From a virus, in IMG/VR virus record IMGVR_UViG_3300027763_002157, positions 1 to 21,677 of that record: a stretch of 21,677 nt of DNA; one strand, given 5' to 3'. Under the pieces are notes generated by a model, which worked only from the letters and a program-made list of their open reading frames with translations, was not told the DNA's origin and did not search any database. Below are positions 2,606 through 17,189 of this stretch, piece by piece. Every line of letters begins with the position of its first letter. Within the stretch, counting starts at the first letter, position 1. Both the position numbers and the translations under genes were made by a program.

Positions 2606-2635
2606 ATTATACGTGAAGTCCGTTGTAAATGTCAA
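2606..2635 (-). promoter_or_regulatory. sigma70-type promoter for gp46 (P46)
   Basis: Minus-strand TTGACA at 2630-2635, 18-bp spacer, TATAAT at 2606-2611. Both hexamers are perfect. The predicted start is near 2599, two bases before the gp46 ATG. The -10 box overlaps the gp47 stop codon (2607-2609), so gp46 can be transcribed separately from gp47 with almost no untranslated leader. Confidence 0.7.
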
Positions 2636-3852: not shown

Positions 3853-4719
3853 TTAGAAATCCTCTGTTTTAAGATTAGCGATACGTTCACGTTCGTCGCG
3901 CATCATTGTTTCGTGTTCAAACTGTCTAGTGAAACTTGGACTGCTGCCTGTTTGAATTAACAAGTCATCTCGTATCATTTGATTTTTCTTTTCAATGTTT
4001 AAAATACGTGTAAAGCTATTGTCAATGGCTGCTGTATAATAAGCAAATGGATTTTGTGATTTTGATTCATCAAACTGTAGTCCAATCTGACTTAGTTGTA
4101 GCAATGCTTGAGAGCGCATCTCGTCTACATAAGTATAGCCACGCCAGTTAAATCTCATGCTGTAACGTTCGCAGAGTAGCATATAGCTCTTGGCTAATTT
4201 TTTTGTTATTTCACCATCCAAACAAAATTCTCCAGTTTCGACATCACCTCGCCAGTGACTTTTGCCTACACATACAAGTTTGTCTTCTCCGTCAATGGTT
4301 TCAAACTTAAAATGTTGAAATGGGGGGAAGTTACATTTACTGTGATGATCTCCTCGATTCTTGGGAGTTTTTTTACGTCCTGGTTCAAGTGGAACATGAT
4401 CATGTGTCATAATTCTAAATATGACATCAGTTTTTAAGACTTTTTTGTAGTCAATTTCAACTTCTGCTAGTTTAGTTTTTGGATTAATCTTTTGAGCTTC
4501 TGCCAATGCTAATTGACTGAGGCGCAGGGCCTTAGTTCGTTTAGCATCAGCAATAGTTCTGATATTGATTTTATCCACACTAGGTAAGATCAAATCGTAG
4601 TCACAATATTCCGGTTTGGAATAACTACTGTACTTGTTCTTACTTAAATGAATTTCTTTTAACAGTTCTTTATTAGTAAGATACTGTTTTGCTAAGGGGT
4701 TTGCTTGTGATGTTGCCAT
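3853..4719 (-). CDS. gp55: gp55 sigma factor for late transcription
   Basis: A 288-residue protein when started at the ATG at 4719. The C-terminal third (about 172-246) carries the region-2-like core, with NWRGYTYVDEMRSQALLQ and FDESKSQNPFAYYTAAI, equivalent to T4 gp55's FNFSGYT and FDETKYKNPHAYIT segments. It directs host RNA polymerase to NATAAATA late promoters, such as those found here at 4788 and 16790. The N-terminus NPLAKQYLTNKELLKEIHLSK matches cyanophage-type gp55, which is longer than T4's 185 residues. The frame stays open to an ATG at 4779, but those 20 extra codons hold a sigma70 promoter and have no ribosome binding site, so I chose 4719. It appears to be translated from a leaderless mRNA. 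Confidence 0.92.
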   Translation of the reverse strand: MATSQANPLAKQYLTNKELLKEIHLSKNKYSSYSKPEYCDYDLILPSVDKINIRTIADAKRTKALRLSQLALAEAQKINPKTKLAEVEIDYKKVLKTDVIFRIMTHDHVPLEPGRKKTPKNRGDHHSKCNFPPFQHFKFETIDGEDKLVCVGKSHWRGDVETGEFCLDGEITKKLAKSYMLLCERYSMRFNWRGYTYVDEMRSQALLQLSQIGLQFDESKSQNPFAYYTAAIDNSFTRILNIEKKNQMIRDDLLIQTGSSPSFTRQFEHETMMRDERERIANLKTEDF

Positions 4720-4725
4720 AGAGTA

Positions 4726-4755
4726 ATAATAACACATTTTTATTACCGATGTCAA
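4726..4755 (-). promoter_or_regulatory. sigma70-type promoter for gp55 (P55)
   Basis: Minus-strand TTGACA at 4750-4755, 18-bp spacer, TATTAT at 4726-4731 with an extended -10 TGT just before it. With the -10 box ending at -7, the start falls at 4719, the A of the gp55 ATG, predicting a leaderless mRNA and deciding the start codon. Confidence 0.65.
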
Positions 4756-4787
4756 GTCTTTTTCATTATAACTATACATTATTTTGC

Positions 4788-4795
4788 CATAAATA
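4788..4795 (+). promoter_or_regulatory. T4-type late promoter octamer (L1)
   Basis: CATAAATA on the plus strand, matching the NATAAATA late consensus of T4-like cyanophages (T4: TATAAATA). It ends 5 bases before the ATG at 4801. Because T4 late octamers occupy about -13 to -6, transcription should begin at the A of the ATG. No Shine-Dalgarno precedes the gene. It heads the baseplate operon 4801-11640. Confidence 0.75.
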
Positions 4796-4800
4796 CTAGT

Positions 4801-5448
4801 ATGAGTGTATATTTAAAAGCAACCAATCCTATAGGCGGACTTGACAAATTAGTATTTCCGTTCACGCCTCAGATTGAGTATAGCACTGATGTCAAGTATG
4901 ATATGTATAATACCACACATACAAATTATCAATTAAATGGATATACTAGAACCGACAACCCAGTTATTGGCATGACTTGTAAGTTCAGTGCTCACACAAC
5001 TGAGCATTTTAAAATCAGTGAATTTGCACTTCGTTTTCTGCGAACTTATACTAAAATGAATTATGGTAGACAGGATAATGACAGAGGTCAACCTCCCAGA
5101 ATACTAAGATTTTTTGCACATGGCAATAGTCTATTTAATAATGTTCCAGTGGTAATTAATAAATTTTCAATGACATTTCCCGAAGATGTTGATTATGTAA
5201 AAGGAACAATTGGAAGTACTGGAGATTCAATAACTAAAACGGATGTAGTGAGATCAACACAGGTTCCCAGTGATCAGTTGGCAAAAAAACAAGTAAGTGA
5301 AAACAGTGTAAACGGTGAAATATATTTACCAATTTTATTTTCAATTAACATCGGCTTGCTAATGCAACAAAATATGTATAATGCAGTCACCGAATTTAAG
5401 TTAGAAGATTTTGCTCTAGGAAAATTAAGTAGCAAAGGATATATTTAA
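4801..5448 (+). CDS. Baseplate/tail-tube junction protein, gp48/gp54/gp19-like
   Basis: A 215-residue protein, first gene of the central baseplate operon. The sequence has segments typical of tail-tube-fold proteins of T4-like marine phages: TKMNYGRQDNDRGQPPRILRFFAHG (in the 80-110 region) and VINKFSMTFPEDVDYVKG (about 119-136), which look like strands of the tube-like fold. T4 gp48 and gp54 cap the baseplate and start tube polymerisation, and are related to gp19. This protein is shorter than gp48 and gp54 (over 300 residues) and longer than gp19. Exact assignment is uncertain; position directly before gp53 and the hub genes supports a baseplate role. It is preceded by a late octamer and no Shine-Dalgarno. 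Confidence 0.8.
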   Translation: MSVYLKATNPIGGLDKLVFPFTPQIEYSTDVKYDMYNTTHTNYQLNGYTRTDNPVIGMTCKFSAHTTEHFKISEFALRFLRTYTKMNYGRQDNDRGQPPRILRFFAHGNSLFNNVPVVINKFSMTFPEDVDYVKGTIGSTGDSITKTDVVRSTQVPSDQLAKKQVSENSVNGEIYLPILFSINIGLLMQQNMYNAVTEFKLEDFALGKLSSKGYI

Positions 5449-5450
5449 TC

Positions 5451-5765
5451 ATGCAAGGTAAATCAAAACCAATTTACAATAATCGAAGTTTTCTTAAAAA
5501 CACTGAGTACAAAAACTTTTATCTAGACACTAGCAAATTACCACCAGTGTCACTAACAGTGGGTGATCAAGTACAGGTTCCACCTGAATGTGAAAATAGA
5601 ATTGATCTGTTTAGTTATCAACAATATGGTTCTAGTAGATTATGGTGGGTCATTGCACTGGCCAACGCTGATATTATCAAAGATCCCACTTGGGATTTTA
5701 AATCTGGTATGATAGTATTTGTTCCTCGAGATGCGAATTTAACTTCTAGCACAGGAGGAATCTAA
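5451..5765 (+). CDS. gp53: Baseplate wedge protein gp53-like
   Basis: A 104-residue protein whose central region NRIDLFSYQQYG-SSRLWWVIALAN-DIIKDPTWDF (about 45-85) matches the gp53/LysM-like fold of T4-like baseplate wedges. In T4, gp53 binds between wedges and helps lock them around the hub. This copy is about half the T4 length, keeping the conserved core and little else. A GxxIxVP-type ending (SGMIVFVPR) closes the LysM-like unit. It starts two bases after the preceding stop with AAAGGA about 12 bases upstream, and its TAA overlaps the next ATG (TAATG). A generic LysM protein attached to the baseplate is the alternative. Confidence 0.75.
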   Translation: MQGKSKPIYNNRSFLKNTEYKNFYLDTSKLPPVSLTVGDQVQVPPECENRIDLFSYQQYGSSRLWWVIALANADIIKDPTWDFKSGMIVFVPRDANLTSSTGGI

Positions 5766-6418
5766 TGACTACGCCGGTGTCGAGTCTTTTTGGACCAAGA
5801 GAATTGTTCGGAAGATCGTATCATCAAGGTATTGATTATGCAACTCCTATTGGCAGTCCTATATATAATAATAAAGAATTAAGAGTGGTATATGCAGGTG
5901 AACAAAAAGGATTTGGTAATGTGGTCAGAGCCGTTGATAATCAGGGAACAGAATATATATTTGGACATTTAGATAGTATACCACAGGGAACCAAATTTGG
6001 TGCTACATTACCAGCCGGAAGTCTTATTGCTCACACAGGAAACTCTGGAGATAGCACTGGAGCACATCTACATTATGAAATAAGACAAGGTAGACCTCCC
6101 AAATCAGTTGATCCACTAACTACTATAGATCCTACAACTGGTAAACCTTATGAATATAATGCTACATTTGAGCAAGGTGGTTCATCATTGAGAAACAGCA
6201 CAGCAAAGAAAGATCCAAATTACACTGCTCAAGGAAAAGATTCTGGTCAAGTACCTTCAGTAGATGCCAGTGGCAGAAGAAATTCTGCAGGAGATCAGCG
6301 TGTTCAAGGTAAAGATACTGCTCCTGCGTTAAAAGGACAACAGCCAGTTATGCCAAGAACAAGTCCAAGAACTGTGACAATTAGAATAAATCCTTTATTG
6401 AAATTAGGCGACAAATAA
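5765..6418 (+). CDS. M23-family zinc metallopeptidase, tail-associated peptidoglycan hydrolase
   Basis: A 217-residue protein with a lysostaphin-type M23 domain in residues 15-110. The zinc and catalytic residues are visible: H20-xxx-D24, H68 in FGHLD, and H101-L-H103 after the glycine-rich NSGDSTGA. M23 enzymes cut peptide cross-links in peptidoglycan. The C-terminal half (about 120-200) is low-complexity, Gly/Ser/Lys rich, ending in a short segment with SPRTVTIRINP that may anchor it in the baseplate. No signal peptide is seen and it lies inside the baseplate operon, so it is most likely a virion-borne tail lysin rather than an endolysin. A strong GGAGG sits six bases before the ATG. It probably does the wall-penetration job of the gp5 lysozyme domain of T4. 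Confidence 0.88.
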   Translation: MTTPVSSLFGPRELFGRSYHQGIDYATPIGSPIYNNKELRVVYAGEQKGFGNVVRAVDNQGTEYIFGHLDSIPQGTKFGATLPAGSLIAHTGNSGDSTGAHLHYEIRQGRPPKSVDPLTTIDPTTGKPYEYNATFEQGGSSLRNSTAKKDPNYTAQGKDSGQVPSVDASGRRNSAGDQRVQGKDTAPALKGQQPVMPRTSPRTVTIRINPLLKLGDK

Positions 6419-9405
6419 TGGCACATACATATTATACACGATTAACATTAGTACACCCTCAGGCAGCAAGTTTATTGGATCCTAGAATGGGCGTAGTCAT
6501 TGCTGAAACAGCAACAACTGGTAGATTTATATTGTCAGATATGTCATGGGAAAGTGCAGTAAGTCCAAATGCACTTACAACTGTGGCATTCAATACCACT
6601 GGTGATTTAAAAATTATTGAACCTTTGGGCATGAGTTTATTTGATTATATTCGTGCCGCGGCCTTTGAAGTGGGCATAGAAAATCACATTGATTCTAGAT
6701 TCTTATTGGAAGTGGAAATATTAGCAGAAGACTTTCTTAGTGGCAAACAAGATAGTCCTTACAAATATATATGGCCCATTATGTTCATTGCCAGTGAAGT
6801 TAAAAGTAGTCTCACTGAGCGAGGCACAGAGTATAATATTAAATTTGCACATACTGGGGGTCATGCACAAACTGATCTGGTACAACCAATTAAAGAAACT
6901 ACAACCATTAAAGGTGTTAAAAATCTTAAAGAATATTTTGAAAAACTTCAGCAAACATTAGAAGAACGAGAATTTAAATATGCTGCCGCAAGACAAAAAG
7001 CAGGTGGCAAAGATGTACCAGGTGGCAAAAATCCTGCAAGTAAAGATGATTATCATGACGAGTATCACTTCATATTAGAACCGCGTTTGGAAGATCCTGG
7101 TTATGAACTTACAACTAAAGGTCCTGCGGATAAAGGTGTACAAGGTGCATGGGATATTAGAAATTTATTCACAACTAAAATTTGGAACATAACTACTCGT
7201 CCTGGAACAACCATCATGCAACAGATAACAAATGTCATGATGAGCTGTAAAAAGATTTCAGATTTATTGCCTGGTAGACCAAAACCTGCAACTGCTGATG
7301 CCAGCGGAAGCAGTGATCGTAGCACTAAAAATATGAAAGATATGTTGGGAACAGTTTATCAATTCTTTAGGGTAGAAACTTACAGCGTTTATAAATTGTA
7401 TGATTATATCAGAGGACGTTATGCAGTAAAGCATGTATTCTTAATATATTTGGCTGATCAGCCAAATATGTTTCAATATCCTGATGAAATAGATTTGTTA
7501 AACAGTTTAAGTAACAAAGATAAAGTTGAGCTAAAATTAAAATATTATATTCAAGAAGGTTTATTAGAAAAAATTTATTATCATAATTACACTGGTTTGA
7601 ACAGTGACATATTAAAAGTAGATCTACAGTTTAATCAAACTTATTCGTTGCCTACATTTGCACAAGTTTGGGCAGATTATGGAACCGCAGGTCCTGGTAT
7701 GATGAATATACAAAACTATAATAAACGTACCAGTGCATTTGTGCATAGAGATGATAAAGGTGTTAGGGTTGCTATTGCTGATTTAAGAGCTGCCAAGGCC
7801 AATAATCAACAAGCACTCAAAGACATGCAAGACGACAAAGGTAATTTAAAAGATATTACTTCTACTGGAGCACAAAAAATTCAACGTAGAAAAGACTATG
7901 AAGCGTTGCAAAAGAAAATAAAAGACATTGACAATGAATTAAAAAAACGAGAACAAGAATTAGCAACTATTAGTATTCCTGCTAAACAAGCAAACGCAAT
8001 TAATAGTAGAGCAGAATTATTAGATGCTCTTAAAGGAAGCTATGCCGAAGACATTGATTTTGTAGATATTTTAGAAAAACAACAAGCCATTGATTTCCCT
8101 AGTCTTCGTGCTAGAATGGAAATAAGTGCCATTGACGAATCCATAGAAACCATACATTCTGAAAATGAACGTCTCATGGAAAAGATTTTTGCAGTTCAAT
8201 TAAGCCCTAGAGATTTAATGGAATTAGAATTAGAAATCATTGCAGATCCTTATTGGCTGGGTGTTCCAAATGTTATTCTTCAAGGTAAAATAAATTTAGA
8301 TAAAATAAAATTTCCTGAAAAAACTTCAAAGGCAATTAAAGGCAAACTAAATGAAGTAATGCCTAAAATAGATCCTAGCTGGAATAATAAAACGCCAGTT
8401 TGGGGTAACTATGGTGTGGCGCAGAAATATGCAGGTAGTTCATTGATTTACTTTAACACTCAAGTACCTGACAACAAATTTGATAAAAACGATATGCTGA
8501 TATTCAATCCCAACGATCAAATTGTGGGTATATACATGGTTAAATTTGTAACTAATGAATTTAAAAACGGTTTATGGACACAAAAATTAAAAACAGTTAG
8601 AGATCCAACTATTCCCAGTTATGTGCTACCTCGAGGTGTAACTAATGAAATGGCATTCGAACAATATATGAATGATGTAATAGAAAGCCCAGTAAGAGCC
8701 ATTGACAAATTAAATGAGTTGAAAAAAGAAGCAGAAAAAGAAAGAGACAGAGAAAAGGGCACAGCCAACATGGCACCAGTTCCTGGTACAGAACCTCCTA
8801 AGAACACAAAGTTAAGTACTAAAATGAGTGATGCTTTATCAAAACAAAAAGAATTATTGGCTGCAGATCCTGCTCCACCTGTCAATGACCCGGTTGCGGC
8901 AGCAAAAGCATTGATGAAAGCGCCAGGTTCTACAATGAGTAAATATGAAGCATATGATATTGCTAAAGCCAAGTACATTGAGGAAGTCAATGCAAATGCG
9001 GCACACATGGAAAAAATAAACAAACAGGCCTACGATGAAGCAAATGTCACTAATGTTAAACCTTATGATGCTAAAACAATATCCAGTCTAGCTAGTACAC
9101 GCAGTGGCAACGGTGGATTGGAAGCATGGAAAACCAGTGCGGATTATAATGGTAATACATCAGTAAAAAATAATGCCGCATCAAGTAATAATCCCACTGG
9201 CATTGGCTACGACAATGAGTCTGACAAATATTATCGATATAGTAACTTTGAAGACGGCATGGCTGCTGCCAATGAATATTATAATTATGGCAATGCAGTT
9301 AAGCCAGTTGGCAATCAAGGATCAGACAGATTATTGTTACCAGCAGATGTTAAAGCAGATCAACAATTAGAATATATTAAAAATAAATTGAAAGGTGGCA
9401 AATAA
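6418..9405 (+). CDS. Large baseplate hub/structural protein (gp27-like ends, tentative)
   Basis: A 995-residue protein between the M23 peptidase and gp5. The N-terminus (1-170) is beta-rich, with SDMSWESAVSPNAL and SLFDYIRAAAFEVG segments that recur in marine T4-like phages. A second beta domain at about 605-735 has DPYWLGVP and VGIYMVKFVTNEFKNGLWTQKL, resembling the C-terminal barrel of gp27/gpD-type hub proteins. Between them is a charged helical, probably coiled-coil stretch (about 445-545). The C-terminal 250 residues are low complexity, Lys/Ala/Asn rich. In T4, gp27 binds the gp5 spike and forms the hub ring; the gene order here fits that. The hub assignment rests on position and weak fold-level resemblance. 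TAATG overlaps link both neighbours. Confidence 0.75.
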   Translation: MAHTYYTRLTLVHPQAASLLDPRMGVVIAETATTGRFILSDMSWESAVSPNALTTVAFNTTGDLKIIEPLGMSLFDYIRAAAFEVGIENHIDSRFLLEVEILAEDFLSGKQDSPYKYIWPIMFIASEVKSSLTERGTEYNIKFAHTGGHAQTDLVQPIKETTTIKGVKNLKEYFEKLQQTLEEREFKYAAARQKAGGKDVPGGKNPASKDDYHDEYHFILEPRLEDPGYELTTKGPADKGVQGAWDIRNLFTTKIWNITTRPGTTIMQQITNVMMSCKKISDLLPGRPKPATADASGSSDRSTKNMKDMLGTVYQFFRVETYSVYKLYDYIRGRYAVKHVFLIYLADQPNMFQYPDEIDLLNSLSNKDKVELKLKYYIQEGLLEKIYYHNYTGLNSDILKVDLQFNQTYSLPTFAQVWADYGTAGPGMMNIQNYNKRTSAFVHRDDKGVRVAIADLRAAKANNQQALKDMQDDKGNLKDITSTGAQKIQRRKDYEALQKKIKDIDNELKKREQELATISIPAKQANAINSRAELLDALKGSYAEDIDFVDILEKQQAIDFPSLRARMEISAIDESIETIHSENERLMEKIFAVQLSPRDLMELELEIIADPYWLGVPNVILQGKINLDKIKFPEKTSKAIKGKLNEVMPKIDPSWNNKTPVWGNYGVAQKYAGSSLIYFNTQVPDNKFDKNDMLIFNPNDQIVGIYMVKFVTNEFKNGLWTQKLKTVRDPTIPSYVLPRGVTNEMAFEQYMNDVIESPVRAIDKLNELKKEAEKERDREKGTANMAPVPGTEPPKNTKLSTKMSDALSKQKELLAADPAPPVNDPVAAAKALMKAPGSTMSKYEAYDIAKAKYIEEVNANAAHMEKINKQAYDEANVTNVKPYDAKTISSLASTRSGNGGLEAWKTSADYNGNTSVKNNAASSNNPTGIGYDNESDKYYRYSNFEDGMAAANEYYNYGNAVKPVGNQGSDRLLLPADVKADQQLEYIKNKLKGGK

Positions 9406-10910
9406 TGGGCAGCGGTAATATTGCAAATCCTTATGGTAATGCCAGGACTCCCAAGAGCTATAATGAAAATGCCAATAACAACGGCAAGGCTAGAAGTCCT
9501 GGTGTATATGTCGGTATAGTGAAAAAGAACAATGATCCACAAAACATGGGTCGTTTAGAAGTCTATATAAAAGAGTTTGGTGGAGATCCACAGTTAGAAA
9601 AATCTTGGATAACTGTAAGCTACGCAAGTCCGTTTGCCGGTTCAACTAGTATATTTGATCAAGGTGCAAACGTCACTGAATATGAAGATACAATGAAAAG
9701 TTATGGCTTTTGGGCAGTCCCTCCAGATTTAGACGCACAAGTTCTTGTAGCTTTTAATGCAGGTAAGGTAACTGACGGGTATTGGTTTGCATGTTTATAT
9801 CAACGAGGAACACAGGTTAGTGTACCAGGTATACCTTCTAAAAATACACACGGTGGTAAAAACAAACCAGCAGCTCCAAAAAATAAACGAGACTCAAATC
9901 CAGATTTAGAAAAATATGTAGAGCATAAGCCCATGAGCAATGCGCTAAAAAAACAAGGTTTGGAAAAAGATTTATTAAGAGGATTGACCAGTAGCAGTGC
10001 AACCAGAGAAACTCCCAGCAAAGTAGTGGGCATACTAACTCCAGGGCAACATCAATTTGTCATGGATGATGGCGATAAGGATGGTAATAATAAACTGATC
10101 AGACTTCGAACTACCAACGGCACACAATTATTATTAGACGATGCTGGTGGGCACATTTATTTAATTACTAAGAATGGTGAAAACTGGGTTGAACTCAGCA
10201 ATGATGGGGCGATTCACATATATGGTGGCAACGATATAAACATAAGAAGTAAAAGTAATATTAACTTATACGCAGATAATGATGTTAACATAGAAGCAGG
10301 CAGAACTATTAACATGAATGCCAAAGAAGGTAATTTACAAATTCAAGCCGCAGGTGATCTTAATTCAACAGTTCAAGGTAGTACTAGACTCACCAGCGTA
10401 CTCAGTAGTCACATATACAGCGGTACAGCACACTATGAAACAGCAAATGTTATTCATATGAATGGTCCGGATGCTGAATTGGCAGCGGCAATTCAACAGT
10501 ATAAACTAGCGGTGAATCAAGGAGTAACTGAAAGTATATGTAGTGTGGTTCCAGAGCGTGAACCGTGGTCTGGTCACAGTGGTGCAATCAACCCAGTTGG
10601 TCCAGGTAATCAACAAATGAAAACAGATCCCAAACCCAACGAGACTCCTAGAAAACCAGAAGAAAAAGAACAGGGCGCACCTATTAGTACTCCTAGTGAA
10701 AAACAAGATGAAGTTGATTTAGCAGATGCCACTGCCAGCGACAAAGCCATTGGTGCAATTAAGAAAAGCAATGGATATAATCCAGTAAATACAAATGATG
10801 CAGGCACACAAAGTGGAGGCTATGGCAGTGATATGATTAATAATTCAACAAACACAACTGATAACATTACATTACCTACCGGTGATGTTGTTGGCACAAG
10901 ATTAGGTTAA
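9405..10910 (+). CDS. gp5: gp5-like baseplate hub/spike protein lacking the lysozyme domain
   Basis: A 501-residue spike protein. An OB-fold domain occupies about 33-131 (SPGVYVGIVKKNNDPQNMGRLEVYI and the later GYWFACLYQ), as in gp5 and VgrG. After a linker, residues 229-350 form repeats of the trimeric beta-helix type (GGNDINIRSKSNINLYA-DNDVNIEAGRTINM), the membrane-piercing needle. The T4 gp5 lysozyme domain that sits between these two parts is absent; the linker (about 145-225) is Lys/Pro/Ser rich with no EGxxLxxY or TxGxGH motif. The C-terminal 120 residues are disordered-looking. Lysis of the cell wall is probably supplied by the M23 peptidase encoded two genes upstream. Its start overlaps the previous stop (TAATG). 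Confidence 0.9.
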   Translation: MGSGNIANPYGNARTPKSYNENANNNGKARSPGVYVGIVKKNNDPQNMGRLEVYIKEFGGDPQLEKSWITVSYASPFAGSTSIFDQGANVTEYEDTMKSYGFWAVPPDLDAQVLVAFNAGKVTDGYWFACLYQRGTQVSVPGIPSKNTHGGKNKPAAPKNKRDSNPDLEKYVEHKPMSNALKKQGLEKDLLRGLTSSSATRETPSKVVGILTPGQHQFVMDDGDKDGNNKLIRLRTTNGTQLLLDDAGGHIYLITKNGENWVELSNDGAIHIYGGNDINIRSKSNINLYADNDVNIEAGRTINMNAKEGNLQIQAAGDLNSTVQGSTRLTSVLSSHIYSGTAHYETANVIHMNGPDAELAAAIQQYKLAVNQGVTESICSVVPEREPWSGHSGAINPVGPGNQQMKTDPKPNETPRKPEEKEQGAPISTPSEKQDEVDLADATASDKAIGAIKKSNGYNPVNTNDAGTQSGGYGSDMINNSTNTTDNITLPTGDVVGTRLG

Positions 10911-10911
10911 T

Positions 10912-11640
10912 ATGGCAACAGAAATGTCTACTTTTTTATCTGCGGCGACATTTGAAGAGTTTGATAAAAAACTTGGAGAAGCTGCCGCGGCAACTGCGGC
11001 ACTGAGTAAAGGCGTTGCGGATATTCCAGGTTTGACTGGAACAACTGTTACTGAAAAAAATCTCATTAATAATTTAACTAATGGTATTAGTCCTGCACAG
11101 GCTAATAATATGTTGGCAAAGGATATTGTTAGTAATGAAGCATCTGTGAAGAAAACTTTGGCTTCTACAGGCGTGACCAAAATTCCACAAAATGTTTTTG
11201 ACGGGTTGGTTAGTTTTCAAAATCAAGTTGGCGATATAAGCTATGCATATATTGGTGGCAGTAAAATAGATCTAACAGGTTTATATCAAAATGGTGAATG
11301 GGATAAAGCGGCAAGTTTTATTGCCGCTGATGAAAGAGATCGTCCTAGAAGAATACGAGAAGCATTGATGATAGTCAGTAACGACTATGGCCCTGATGTT
11401 GACGAGGTATCAATTATTAGGCAGGGATTAGACAATGCCAATGAGCTAATAGCCAAAAGCAAGTTAAACGAACAAACAGGTGATCCTGCCACGGATCAAC
11501 AAGTATTGGCAGCCGCCACAAATTATATTAAAGAAACTGGTAAGACTGTGCCTAATCAAAGTTTTGCTATTAGTTTGGCTGCAGATAACAATGAATTACA
11601 AGAGCTGGTCAATCAAACTGCTGGCCCTTGGCCATATTAA
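10912..11640 (+). CDS. Degenerate GH24 (T4 lysozyme-like) domain protein, probably inactive
   Basis: A 242-residue protein. Residues about 58-155 match the C-terminal lobe of GH24 lysozymes: GISPAQANNMLAKDI aligns with T4 lysozyme GVITKDEAEKLFNQDV, NVFDGLVSFQNQVGD with the central SLDAVRRAALINMVFQMGE helix, and GEWDKAASFIA plus RPRRIREALM with KRWDEAAVNLA plus PNRAKRVIT. The N-terminal catalytic part (the EGxxLxxY Glu and the TxGxGH strand) is missing: residues 1-57 are an Ala-rich helix without a suitable Glu/Asp/Thr set. It therefore looks like a non-enzymatic structural relic. It follows gp5 by one base. T4 carries a GH24 domain inside gp5, so this may be that module, detached. The alignment is by eye. 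Confidence 0.7.
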   Translation: MATEMSTFLSAATFEEFDKKLGEAAAATAALSKGVADIPGLTGTTVTEKNLINNLTNGISPAQANNMLAKDIVSNEASVKKTLASTGVTKIPQNVFDGLVSFQNQVGDISYAYIGGSKIDLTGLYQNGEWDKAASFIAADERDRPRRIREALMIVSNDYGPDVDEVSIIRQGLDNANELIAKSKLNEQTGDPATDQQVLAAATNYIKETGKTVPNQSFAISLAADNNELQELVNQTAGPWPY

Positions 11641-13443: not shown

Positions 13444-14759
13444 TACAATTTCTCCCCTGCTTCAAAACCTCGGAAACGTAAAAATCTAGGAAAACGCAGA
13501 CTATATGTACCATCTTGATTTTGTGTAATAGCATCTGCTCTTACTTCAACCACTGTTCCAAACAGTGAATTACGATTAGTCCAAAAGTTGCTCCTATCGA
13601 GATCACTAAAACCGCTACCGCAATTGACTTCAATATATCGCCCTCCATCGTCTCCGGCGCAGATAAGTGCGCCCAATCGTCCTTCATTTCTTCCTGTTCC
13701 TTCTTCGACACCTTGTACCTCCAAACTTACTTCAATAAAAGGCTTTAGTTTCAACCAAGCATGACTTCGCTTGCATTCATAAGGAGCCAAAGGATCCTTA
13801 ATCATAATGCCTTCATAGCCGCCTTCGATGGCCAGTGCATTAATTTCTTTATATTTTTGTTGACCTGATTCAGAGTCCAAATCAACTAGTTCTTGACCCA
13901 CCATTGTTACATTAGGCAAAGAGTTTTGATGATGAAGCATGAACTCTTTTAAATGATTGCTACGAAATTCTTGGGTAGCGTTCCAGGTTCCTTGTTCAAA
14001 ATGAACCAATGGAATACAATCAAACAAATGTAGAATTGCATCTTCTGCATTAACATCGCTTTTACGATGTACTTGTTTCATCAAATCTTGGAAACTGCTT
14101 GACATAATCTCACCATCAAAGACCCAAGGCTCTAACAGCGTATCTGTGATAGATTTAAACTGCTCTGCTATGTGAGGAAAGTTAACAAGCTCTTTACCAT
14201 TGCGACTAAACATGTTGACGCGACCATCAGGGTACACTATAGTGATAACACGAACACCATCAAGTTTAACCTCGATAAGTCTAGATCCTCGGACCTTAGC
14301 TTCATGATTAGCACTATCATGGGCAAGCTGACAGCCAAAAACTGGAATAGCATAGTCAGTATATTTCTTCTCCACAACCTTGTTGATTGTTTTTTCACTG
14401 ACACCACAGCGTAGATCTTTGATAAGGATGCGACGATACCAACCATTCCATTGTGCATTAGTACAGTTTGACATTAACTGATCAATGGTACTCCGAGCAA
14501 GGTTACCAGTGATACTGCGATTAACAAAACCAGTGATGATAAGTGTAAATGAGTCCCAATCAACACCAGGGCCATCAGGCCCACTGCGTTCTGGAACTTG
14601 TTTAATACCAAATGTAATGGTGCTGTCTAAGGCAAGACGACAGCCTTCAAAAAATTCATCATTGCCTGCTTCAGCTTGGGCAAGGATAATTTGTTCTTTG
14701 TTAGTGCGAAGATTGTGATCTTCTAAACTGCTGATAACATAATAGCAAGGATCAAACAT
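13443..14759 (-). CDS. gp30: ATP-dependent DNA ligase (T4 gp30-like)
   Basis: A 438-residue ATP-dependent ligase. Motif I is EVKLDGVR with the AMP-accepting lysine at 165. Motif III appears as FDGEIMSS, motif IV as YEGIMIKDP and motif V as WLKLKP. The first 150 residues form a helical N-terminal DNA-binding domain and the C-terminus has the OB-fold (motif region FPRFLRFRGFE). It seals nicks during replication, recombination and repair, and is slightly shorter than T4 ligase (487 residues). A GGAG lies six bases before the ATG. The promoter upstream is nested in a terminator (14775-14818), giving this gene its own controlled start. It heads a minus-strand operon with seven genes. Confidence 0.95.
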   Translation of the reverse strand: MFDPCYYVISSLEDHNLRTNKEQIILAQAEAGNDEFFEGCRLALDSTITFGIKQVPERSGPDGPGVDWDSFTLIITGFVNRSITGNLARSTIDQLMSNCTNAQWNGWYRRILIKDLRCGVSEKTINKVVEKKYTDYAIPVFGCQLAHDSANHEAKVRGSRLIEVKLDGVRVITIVYPDGRVNMFSRNGKELVNFPHIAEQFKSITDTLLEPWVFDGEIMSSSFQDLMKQVHRKSDVNAEDAILHLFDCIPLVHFEQGTWNATQEFRSNHLKEFMLHHQNSLPNVTMVGQELVDLDSESGQQKYKEINALAIEGGYEGIMIKDPLAPYECKRSHAWLKLKPFIEVSLEVQGVEEGTGRNEGRLGALICAGDDGGRYIEVNCGSGFSDLDRSNFWTNRNSLFGTVVEVRADAITQNQDGTYSLRFPRFLRFRGFEAGEKL

Positions 14760-14774
14760 TTAGTCTCCAAAAAA

Positions 14775-14810
14775 AAATCTCTATGCCATATTATAACAGC
14801 ATAGAGATTT
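14775..14810 (-). terminator. Rho-independent terminator upstream of ligase, overlapping its promoter
   Basis: Perfect 12-bp inverted repeat, arms 14775-14786 and 14799-14810, loop of 12. On the minus strand the stem is followed at once by a run of T (nine in a row counting the stem end), so it should stop transcripts coming from the DUF2061/kinase operon. The plus-strand side lacks a T-run. The loop contains the -10 box of the ligase promoter. Confidence 0.82.
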
Positions 14811-14818
14811 TGTGTCAA
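14790..14818 (-). promoter_or_regulatory. Consensus sigma70 promoter for DNA ligase (P30)
   Basis: Minus-strand TTGACA at 14813-14818, exactly 17 bp, then TATAAT at 14790-14795 with extended -10 TGT. All twelve hexamer bases match. The spacer is one arm of the terminator stem, so transcripts starting near 14783 lack that arm and cannot form the hairpin. Confidence 0.82.
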
Positions 14819-16123: not shown

Positions 16124-16152
16124 TTGACAATATATATTTAAGGCTGTATAAT
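16124..16152 (+). promoter_or_regulatory. Consensus sigma70 promoter for the HNH gene
   Basis: Plus-strand TTGACA at 16124-16129, exactly 17 bp, then TATAAT at 16147-16152. The predicted start is near 16159, 34 bases before the ATG. The promoter gives the HNH gene early expression independent of the late operon that follows. Confidence 0.75.
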
Positions 16153-16179
16153 TGTTTTTACGGGCAACCGATTTATAAG

Positions 16180-16187
16180 ATTAAATA
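16180..16187 (+). promoter_or_regulatory. Weak late-promoter-like octamer before the HNH gene
   Basis: ATTAAATA has one mismatch to NATAAATA and lies exactly 5 bases before the HNH ATG, the same spacing as the two good late octamers at 4788 and 16790. The A/T-rich surroundings make a chance match quite possible. Confidence 0.35.
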
Positions 16188-16192
16188 AAAAT

Positions 16193-16732
16193 ATGAGTGA
16201 TGTATTACTTTTAAACAGCGATGGTACTCCACTATCAATGTTACCACCCAGTGTCATTGATTGGACTTATGCCATCAAACTAGTTTATCTAAACAAAGTA
16301 TCTGTGGTCAAAGAGTATGATGATTGGGTAGTTCACAGTCAAAAATTAGCAATTCCTGTGCCCAGTATCATTATGACCAAGCGTTATGTGCGTCCAAAAA
16401 ATAAAGTATTGTTTAATCGTAAAATGGTTTATCTTCGTGATAATTACACTTGTCAATACTGCGGAGAACAATTTCAAGCCAAAGATTTGACATTAGATCA
16501 TGTACAGCCAAAAAGCAAAGGCGGTAATAGTTCATGGAGTAATTTAGTTACATGTTGTGGTACATGCAATTGGCTTAAAGGTGCCAAAGCTATAGAGCCA
16601 TTGACCAAGCCCAAAGAACCCAGCTATTGGCAAATGGTCAAAGTTGTTAAACAACATAATCCTTATCACATGAGGGATCCCGCCTGGGCAGAATATCTAG
16701 GCTATGAACAACCAAGGCAAGCAACAGGATAA
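16193..16732 (+). CDS. HNH endonuclease, stand-alone
   Basis: A 179-residue protein with a zinc-stabilised HNH domain: C87-QY-C90, LTLDHVQPKSKGG (99-111) carrying the catalytic D102-H103, N117 in WSNLV, and C122-GT-C125. The N-terminal 75 residues (VLLLNSDGTPLSMLPPSVIDW) match a family of 5-methylcytosine-restriction-like HNH proteins common in marine bacteria and their phages; a role in DNA cutting is expected, target unknown. It is the only plus-strand gene in its neighbourhood and has its own sigma70 promoter and terminator. No ribosome binding site of note precedes the ATG; a weak TAAGA lies 15 bases upstream. Homing, host-DNA degradation or a packaging-related role are all possible. Confidence 0.88.
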   Translation: MSDVLLLNSDGTPLSMLPPSVIDWTYAIKLVYLNKVSVVKEYDDWVVHSQKLAIPVPSIIMTKRYVRPKNKVLFNRKMVYLRDNYTCQYCGEQFQAKDLTLDHVQPKSKGGNSSWSNLVTCCGTCNWLKGAKAIEPLTKPKEPSYWQMVKVVKQHNPYHMRDPAWAEYLGYEQPRQATG

Positions 16733-16756: not shown

Positions 16757-16789
16757 ATATTGACTTATTATCTACATACATTATTCCAT

Positions 16790-16797
16790 AATAAATA
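16790..16797 (+). promoter_or_regulatory. T4-type late promoter octamer (L2)
   Basis: AATAAATA matches NATAAATA and ends 5 bases before the gp25 ATG at 16803, exactly as at 4788. The predicted start is the A of the ATG. No Shine-Dalgarno precedes gp25. It heads the gp25-gp6 operon. Confidence 0.75.
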
Positions 16798-16802
16798 CAT
16801 GT

Positions 16803-17189
16803 ATGAGAGTCTTTAAAGGTTATAGTACAGTGGGCAAGGAATGGGGCAACTTCAAAATCTATGATATTGAGCTTGCTAAACGTGATCTGCTCAATGAAAT
16901 GTACACTCGTAAGGGTGAAAGATTAATGAGTCCCGAATACGGTTATATTGTATGGGATTTACTATTTGATCCATTAACTCATGAATTAGTAGACTACATT
17001 AGAGGGGATACTCTGCGAATAATCAGCAGAGATCCTAGACTAGAACTTAATACATTAGACGTTACCGAGGACGTTGATTTACAGACATTAACAGTGAAAG
17101 TAATTTTGAATTATGTTCCCACTGCGACAATAACTGATTTAGTAGCAGTTTTTTCCAGAGACATAGCTTCAAATAAACTACAAGGATAA
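16803..17189 (+). CDS. gp25: gp25 baseplate wedge protein
   Basis: A 128-residue protein of the GPW/gp25 family. The hallmark RKGERLMSPEYGYIVWDLLFDPL (36-58) contains the conserved ERxMxPExG motif, followed by a two-strand C-terminal part (LQTLTVKVILNYVPT). gp25 joins gp6 to the inner wedge and is related to sheath C-terminal handshake domains, so it helps start sheath assembly. It is the first gene of a late operon and appears leaderless. It is separated from gp6 by four bases. Confidence 0.95.
   Translation: MRVFKGYSTVGKEWGNFKIYDIELAKRDLLNEMYTRKGERLMSPEYGYIVWDLLFDPLTHELVDYIRGDTLRIISRDPRLELNTLDVTEDVDLQTLTVKVILNYVPTATITDLVAVFSRDIASNKLQG

Follow-up and report, generated by a model that had tools for sequence, protein, structure and literature searches.

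The octamer CATAAATA (4788-4795, plus strand) in the window, that is, the whole 21,677-nucleotide stretch of viral DNA analyzed here (IMG/VR record IMGVR_UViG_3300027763_002157), is very likely a T4-type late promoter that would place the transcription start on the A of the ATG at 4801-4803, so that the mRNA of a baseplate operon would carry no leader. The assignment of the start comes from the position of T4 late octamers, at -13 to -6 (PMC2988020), as the earlier note had also stated, combined with the gap of 5 bp observed here. Under the proposed scenario, host RNA polymerase carrying the gp55-like sigma factor encoded by the adjoining gene would read the octamer; the first transcribed base would be the A of ATG 4801, an exact position that is predicted by carrying the -13 to -6 rule over from T4; and the ribosome would presumably bind the 5'-terminal AUG without Shine-Dalgarno (SD) pairing to start the first gene. 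Two further genes of the window would be expressed in this way, gp25 at 16803 and, probably, the HNH gene at 16193, as would a minority of late and early genes throughout the jumbo-phage clade to which this virus belongs.

The baseplate operon, its promoter and related loci in the window

The octamer, a gp55-type -10 element predicted to span -13 to -6, is followed by the discriminator CTAGT (4796-4800, plus strand; predicted -5 to -1), with a pyrimidine at -1, and then by the start codon, the A of which is the predicted transcription start. The first gene (4801-5448, plus strand; predicted leaderless) encodes a virion structural protein (phrog_12050, E 8e-38) of a family that was found in every clade contig tested, and the remainder of the operon (5451-11640, plus strand) encodes a wedge subunit, a metallo-endopeptidase, a structural protein, a hub/tail lysozyme and an endolysin-like protein. 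That the octamer ends 5 bp before the ATG and that there is no SD, both pointed out in the earlier note, is readily confirmed from the sequence: AGGA, GGAG and GAGG are absent upstream of this gene as well as the gene at 16803. Alternative starts for the first gene can be ruled out, given that no in-frame start exists upstream of 4801 and that the next in-frame ATG, GTG or TTG is located 34 codons downstream, within the conserved protein.

This organization is kept in all 20 of the 20 close relatives that possess the intergenic region (some of these loci are near-duplicates), with ATAAATA in 15 of them and CTAAATA, the a/gC octamer variant known from Aeh1, in the other 5. The five bases between the octamer and the ATG vary freely in the relatives (ctagt, atgat, ctgac, tcatt, tctat, taggt and others) at constant length. 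In the more distant relatives (55-66% identity in gp55), this locus mostly has a leader or no exact octamer, which confines the trait at the first gene to the close clade. Upstream of the octamer, the block AACTATACATTATT (4770-4783, plus strand) is conserved, and a similar block precedes the octamer at 16790; in the relatives, a block like TACATTATT is kept just upstream of the octamer both at the gene divergent from gp55 (4770-4783) and at gp25 (about 16770-16784). T4 late promoters have been described as lacking a conserved upstream sequence (PMC7892883).

The second octamer, AATAAATA (16790-16797, plus strand; ATAAATA at 16791-16797), is followed by CATGT and the ATG at 16803, which bears out the identical spacing reported previously for this site. 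The gene in question (16803-17189, plus strand; predicted leaderless) encodes the baseplate wedge protein gp25 (PF04965, 2.6e-8), and its orthologs show the 5 bp gap in six further contigs of the clade, with one more having a gap of 6 bp. A degenerate late octamer, ATTAAATA (16180-16187, plus strand), lies 5 bp before ATG 16193 of an HNH endonuclease gene (16193-16732, plus strand), with the same arrangement in the relative G001, so that this gene is a candidate for a third leaderless late start. Because the region 16124-16192 contains both a sigma70-type promoter (at 16124) and the degenerate octamer at 5 bp, the HNH gene may be expressed throughout infection. Elsewhere in the window, a sigma70-type promoter, a leader and GGAG precede the DNA ligase gene (14759-14818). 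For the gene at 173-601, the best PHROG is labeled NAD synthetase but homing endonuclease families match too, and this annotation may be mistaken.

The window comes from a T4-type jumbo phage. The phage encodes its own late sigma factor of the gp55 family, and octamers of the TATAAATA/NATAAATA type lie upstream of its late structural genes. A nucleotide search of a phage collection recovered no relative of the window and nothing near it among the named phages; environmental contigs with 55-94% identity were recovered by a translated gp55 search, and the longest of these, at 230-330 kb, are of jumbo-phage size. By gp55, the nearest named phages are PA5oct and its kin (49% identity).

Octamer spacing across the clade

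The spacing between octamer and ATG in relatives, which the earlier note had singled out as the observation that could overturn its reading, was surveyed in ten contigs of the clade (the window, G001-G007, G009 and G010), in which open reading frames of at least 50 codons were called by a simple longest-first rule and the gap separating each ATAAATA from the called gene's first in-frame ATG was measured. Allowing for the simplicity of the gene caller and for the partial non-independence of octamer sites from related contigs, 57 of the 364 non-identical ATAAATA sites are located exactly 5 bp before the ATG of a called gene. The relatives thus do have a preferred spacing, and the reading in the note passes this check. 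Across the same sites, the gap falls at 4-8 bp in 96 cases, at 9-14 bp in 7 and at 15-45 bp in 150, and 95 sites have no ATG of any called gene within 60 bp. The spacing thus forms two classes: either the start codon is located at the predicted transcription start or there is a leader long enough to accommodate an SD. Most of the other octamer-led genes of the clade have a leader of 10-40 nucleotides, usually with an SD.

Several features set the short-spaced class apart. An SD is found in only 1 of the 96 genes with the octamer at 4-8 bp vs 99 of the 150 long-spaced genes (Fisher p 8e-29). A pyrimidine occupies -1 in 56 of the 57 sites at 5 bp compared with 441 of 887 starts overall (p 2e-15), and in 18 of 18 sites at 7-8 bp, with no such bias at 4 and 6 bp; RNA polymerase prefers a pyrimidine-purine step at +1. 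It might be that a U at -1 also aids translation by itself. The codon at offset 5 is ATG in 60 cases, GTG in 1 and TTG in 3, a bias that is expected for leaderless starts in most bacteria; leaderless mRNAs are known to favor AUG and to bind 70S ribosomes (PMC9031893). Hence the short-spaced genes combine a -10 element at leaderless spacing, lack of an SD and ATG as the start codon, and on these sequence features, together with the pyrimidine at -1, the leaderless message proposed in the earlier note appears well supported.

Could this pattern be explained in any other way? With a window that is 64% A+T and contains just two copies of the motif, the simplest objection is that an AT-rich heptamer happens to lie near an ATG. 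This is extremely improbable, and the earlier note had already called chance unlikely from the two sites alone: ATAAATA is actually under-represented in the 21.7 kb of the window (2 occurrences vs 10.5 expected), and both copies lie 5 bp before the ATG of a homology-supported gene. Moreover, the pattern recurs in the ten contigs and in pelagiphages. Across the 364 sites, an ATG is found at offset 5 in 68 cases compared with an average of about 4.8 for the offsets 9-14 (binomial p about 3e-55, uncorrected for relatedness). Matched controls exclude chance AT-richness: of the 21 orders in which these seven letters were arranged, ATAAATA alone produces a peak (17.9% in nine contigs; 1.7% for the next best), and under single substitutions some excess is kept only by GTAAATA, CTAAATA and TTAAATA, that is, changes in the first position, and by ATAAGTA, with a pyrimidine before the ATG in nearly all of these substituted octamers.

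A subtler alternative accepts the late promoter but has the first gene translated mostly from longer transcripts started upstream, or via another SD-free, leadered route, with the 5 bp spacing reflecting compaction between divergent genes. The intergenic region indeed spans only 81 bp and also contains the gp55 promoter, and the conserved block at 4770-4783 upstream of the octamer could be taken to point in the same direction. However, the plus strand of the region between gp55 and the first gene yielded no sigma70-type site, many loci without a divergent gp55 neighbor have the same fixed spacing, and compaction leaves the depleted interval at 9-14 bp, the loss of the SD and the pyrimidine rule without explanation; we consider this possibility very unlikely. 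A modest but real probability, albeit still a low one, attaches to an ultra-short leader, with transcription starting 1-3 nucleotides away from the A of the ATG, which functionally would still amount to SD-free initiation at a 5'-AUG. The starts of bacterial promoters are known to wobble, the 18 sites at 7-8 bp all have a pyrimidine at -1, and, among the pyrimidine-purine steps of the long-spaced promoters, the most frequent one places the purine at position 5, rather than 6, past the octamer, so that a leader of 1 nucleotide, or a shift of the start by one, is possible. Against such an offset, the sharp mode at exactly 5 bp and the pyrimidine that almost invariably precedes the ATG suggest that the A itself is the start. 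Initiation on this A, directed by the T4-type late promoter, is the most probable reading.

Host-type promoters and a possible two-class programme

The gp55-like late sigma factor gene (3853-4719, minus strand; phrog_12791 5e-74; phrog_234 9.5e-23) is divergent from the first gene of the operon, with 81 bp between them. The longest gp55 frame begins at 4779 and its extra 20 codons overlap the promoter; the actual start most likely is 4719, judging from the relatives, which align from residue 1 of the protein that starts there. A sigma70-type promoter, TTGACA-18-TATTAT (4726-4755, minus strand), is located 6 bp before this ATG, with matching spacing of 5-7 bp in G001, G002 and G004-G007, and the gp55 message, too, is predicted to be leaderless. 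Because the gp55 promoter is also at leaderless spacing, the single 81 bp intergenic region seems to give rise to two divergent leaderless messages, that of the late sigma factor from a host-type promoter and that of the baseplate operon from a late one. Another sigma70-type promoter, TTGACA-18-TATAAT (2606-2635, minus strand), lies 8 bp before ATG 2597 of a gp46-like gene, for which no leader or one of 1-2 nucleotides is predicted, and is kept at 5-8 bp in seven clade contigs. In the clade at large, promoters of the form TTGAC-17/18-TAnnnT peak at 5-8 bp before the ATG (35 sites), with 2 sites at 10-15 bp.

The sigma70-type promoters thus show the same dichotomy of short and long spacing, which rules out a strategy confined to late genes. 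The suggestion in the earlier note that the virus follows a different late strategy therefore holds in part. The contrast with T4 is real, in that T4 and KVP40 have no octamers at 4-8 bp, but only some of the late genes are predicted to be leaderless, and the label of a separate late strategy does not apply, given that most gene-preceding late octamers of the clade come with leaders and that the early, sigma70-type promoters share the leaderless spacing.

We would tentatively propose, at somewhat less than even confidence, that in the T4-type jumbo-phage clade and, separately, in pelagi- and methylophages, a two-class translation programme is built into promoter placement, with a leaderless subset of messages produced from both sigma70 and gp55 promoters, including the late sigma mRNA and the baseplate operon, and the rest leadered, usually with an SD. 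Speculatively, such a programme could favor leaderless messages as ribosomes change in the course of infection, for example, via phage-encoded bS21 or IF3. The bS21 protein is encoded in G002, G009, G010, PA5oct, HTVC008M and Mosig; IF3 was detected in one relative only, G002 (IMGVR_UViG_3300046786_000304, 217302-217759), with bS21 directly after it, and a phage-encoded S1 was sought but not found. Should fusion of promoter and start codon prove routine in relatives of T4, a major lineage of lytic phages would mix leaderless and SD-led late translation. Nature would then offer plenty of leaderless genes that are open to testing, and a simple rule would become available for recognizing late promoters and the true starts of genes, both in jumbo phages and in pelagiphages. 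A literature search, incomplete in its coverage, so that an earlier description might exist, turned up no description of leaderless late mRNAs in T4-type phages.

Comparison with known systems

T4 late transcription is a textbook system, the messages of which have leaders. The T4 late promoters, which depend on gp55, gp33 and gp45 and carry TATAAATA, resemble those described here in the octamer itself, the a/gC variant included, in the structural genes served and in the gp55-like sigma factor, which in the window is encoded by the adjoining gene. They differ in that the octamer in T4 is never less than 12 bp from the ATG of a called gene and that T4 and KVP40 usually have leaders with an SD, whereas about a quarter of the clade octamers are located at 4-8 bp, without an SD. 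In the spacing survey, no octamers at 4-8 bp were found in T4, KVP40, S-PM2 or Syn9; P-SSM4 has three such sites and PA5oct has two. The T4-like phages Cr30 and phiM12 have no sites with the octamer 5 bp before an ATG.

In bacterial leaderless (TA-led) genes, about 10-12 bp separate the -10 box from the start codon downstream (PMC3160421), and here, too, the placement of the -10 element puts the transcript start on the start codon in the absence of an SD. Unlike these genes, the clade employs a phage late sigma element in addition to a host-type sigma70 element, and the predicted leaderless genes are structural and replication genes of a lytic phage.

The Pseudomonas phage PA5oct (Arenbergviridae) shares the divergent orientation of the gp55 gene and a structural gene but differs in that only 2 of its 145 octamers are at 5 bp and the gene beside gp55 is leadered. 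For one of these two sites, the annotated start coincides with the predicted leaderless start, 144985, and the protein is annotated as seen by mass spectrometry; for the other, the annotated start is 15 nucleotides upstream of the predicted one.

The arrangement is not unique to this virus because two pelagiphages and a methylophage, all Kyanoviridae, show it as well: ATAAATA precedes the ATG by 5 bp in 8 genes of HTVC008M, 6 of Mosig and 3 of Melnitz, baseplate wedge genes included. In these three phages, the 5 bp peak is specific to ATAAATA (17 of 143). The annotated starts of HTVC008M coincide with five predicted leaderless starts (19456, 31132, 49760, 18916 minus and 16007 minus), as do the database starts of three Mosig genes and one Melnitz gene. 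The HTVC008M gene at 31132, annotated as a baseplate wedge subunit and with its octamer at 5 bp, is a distant match to gp25 of the window (39% over 38 residues, E 0.004). An earlier attempt at late promoter prediction in pelagimyophages failed (PMC7029224); ATAAATA at 5 bp before an ATG likely marks the late promoters of the pelagi- and methylophages. Compared with the present clade, HTVC008M, Mosig and Melnitz are smaller phages of another family, and HTVC008M favors ATAAATAG.
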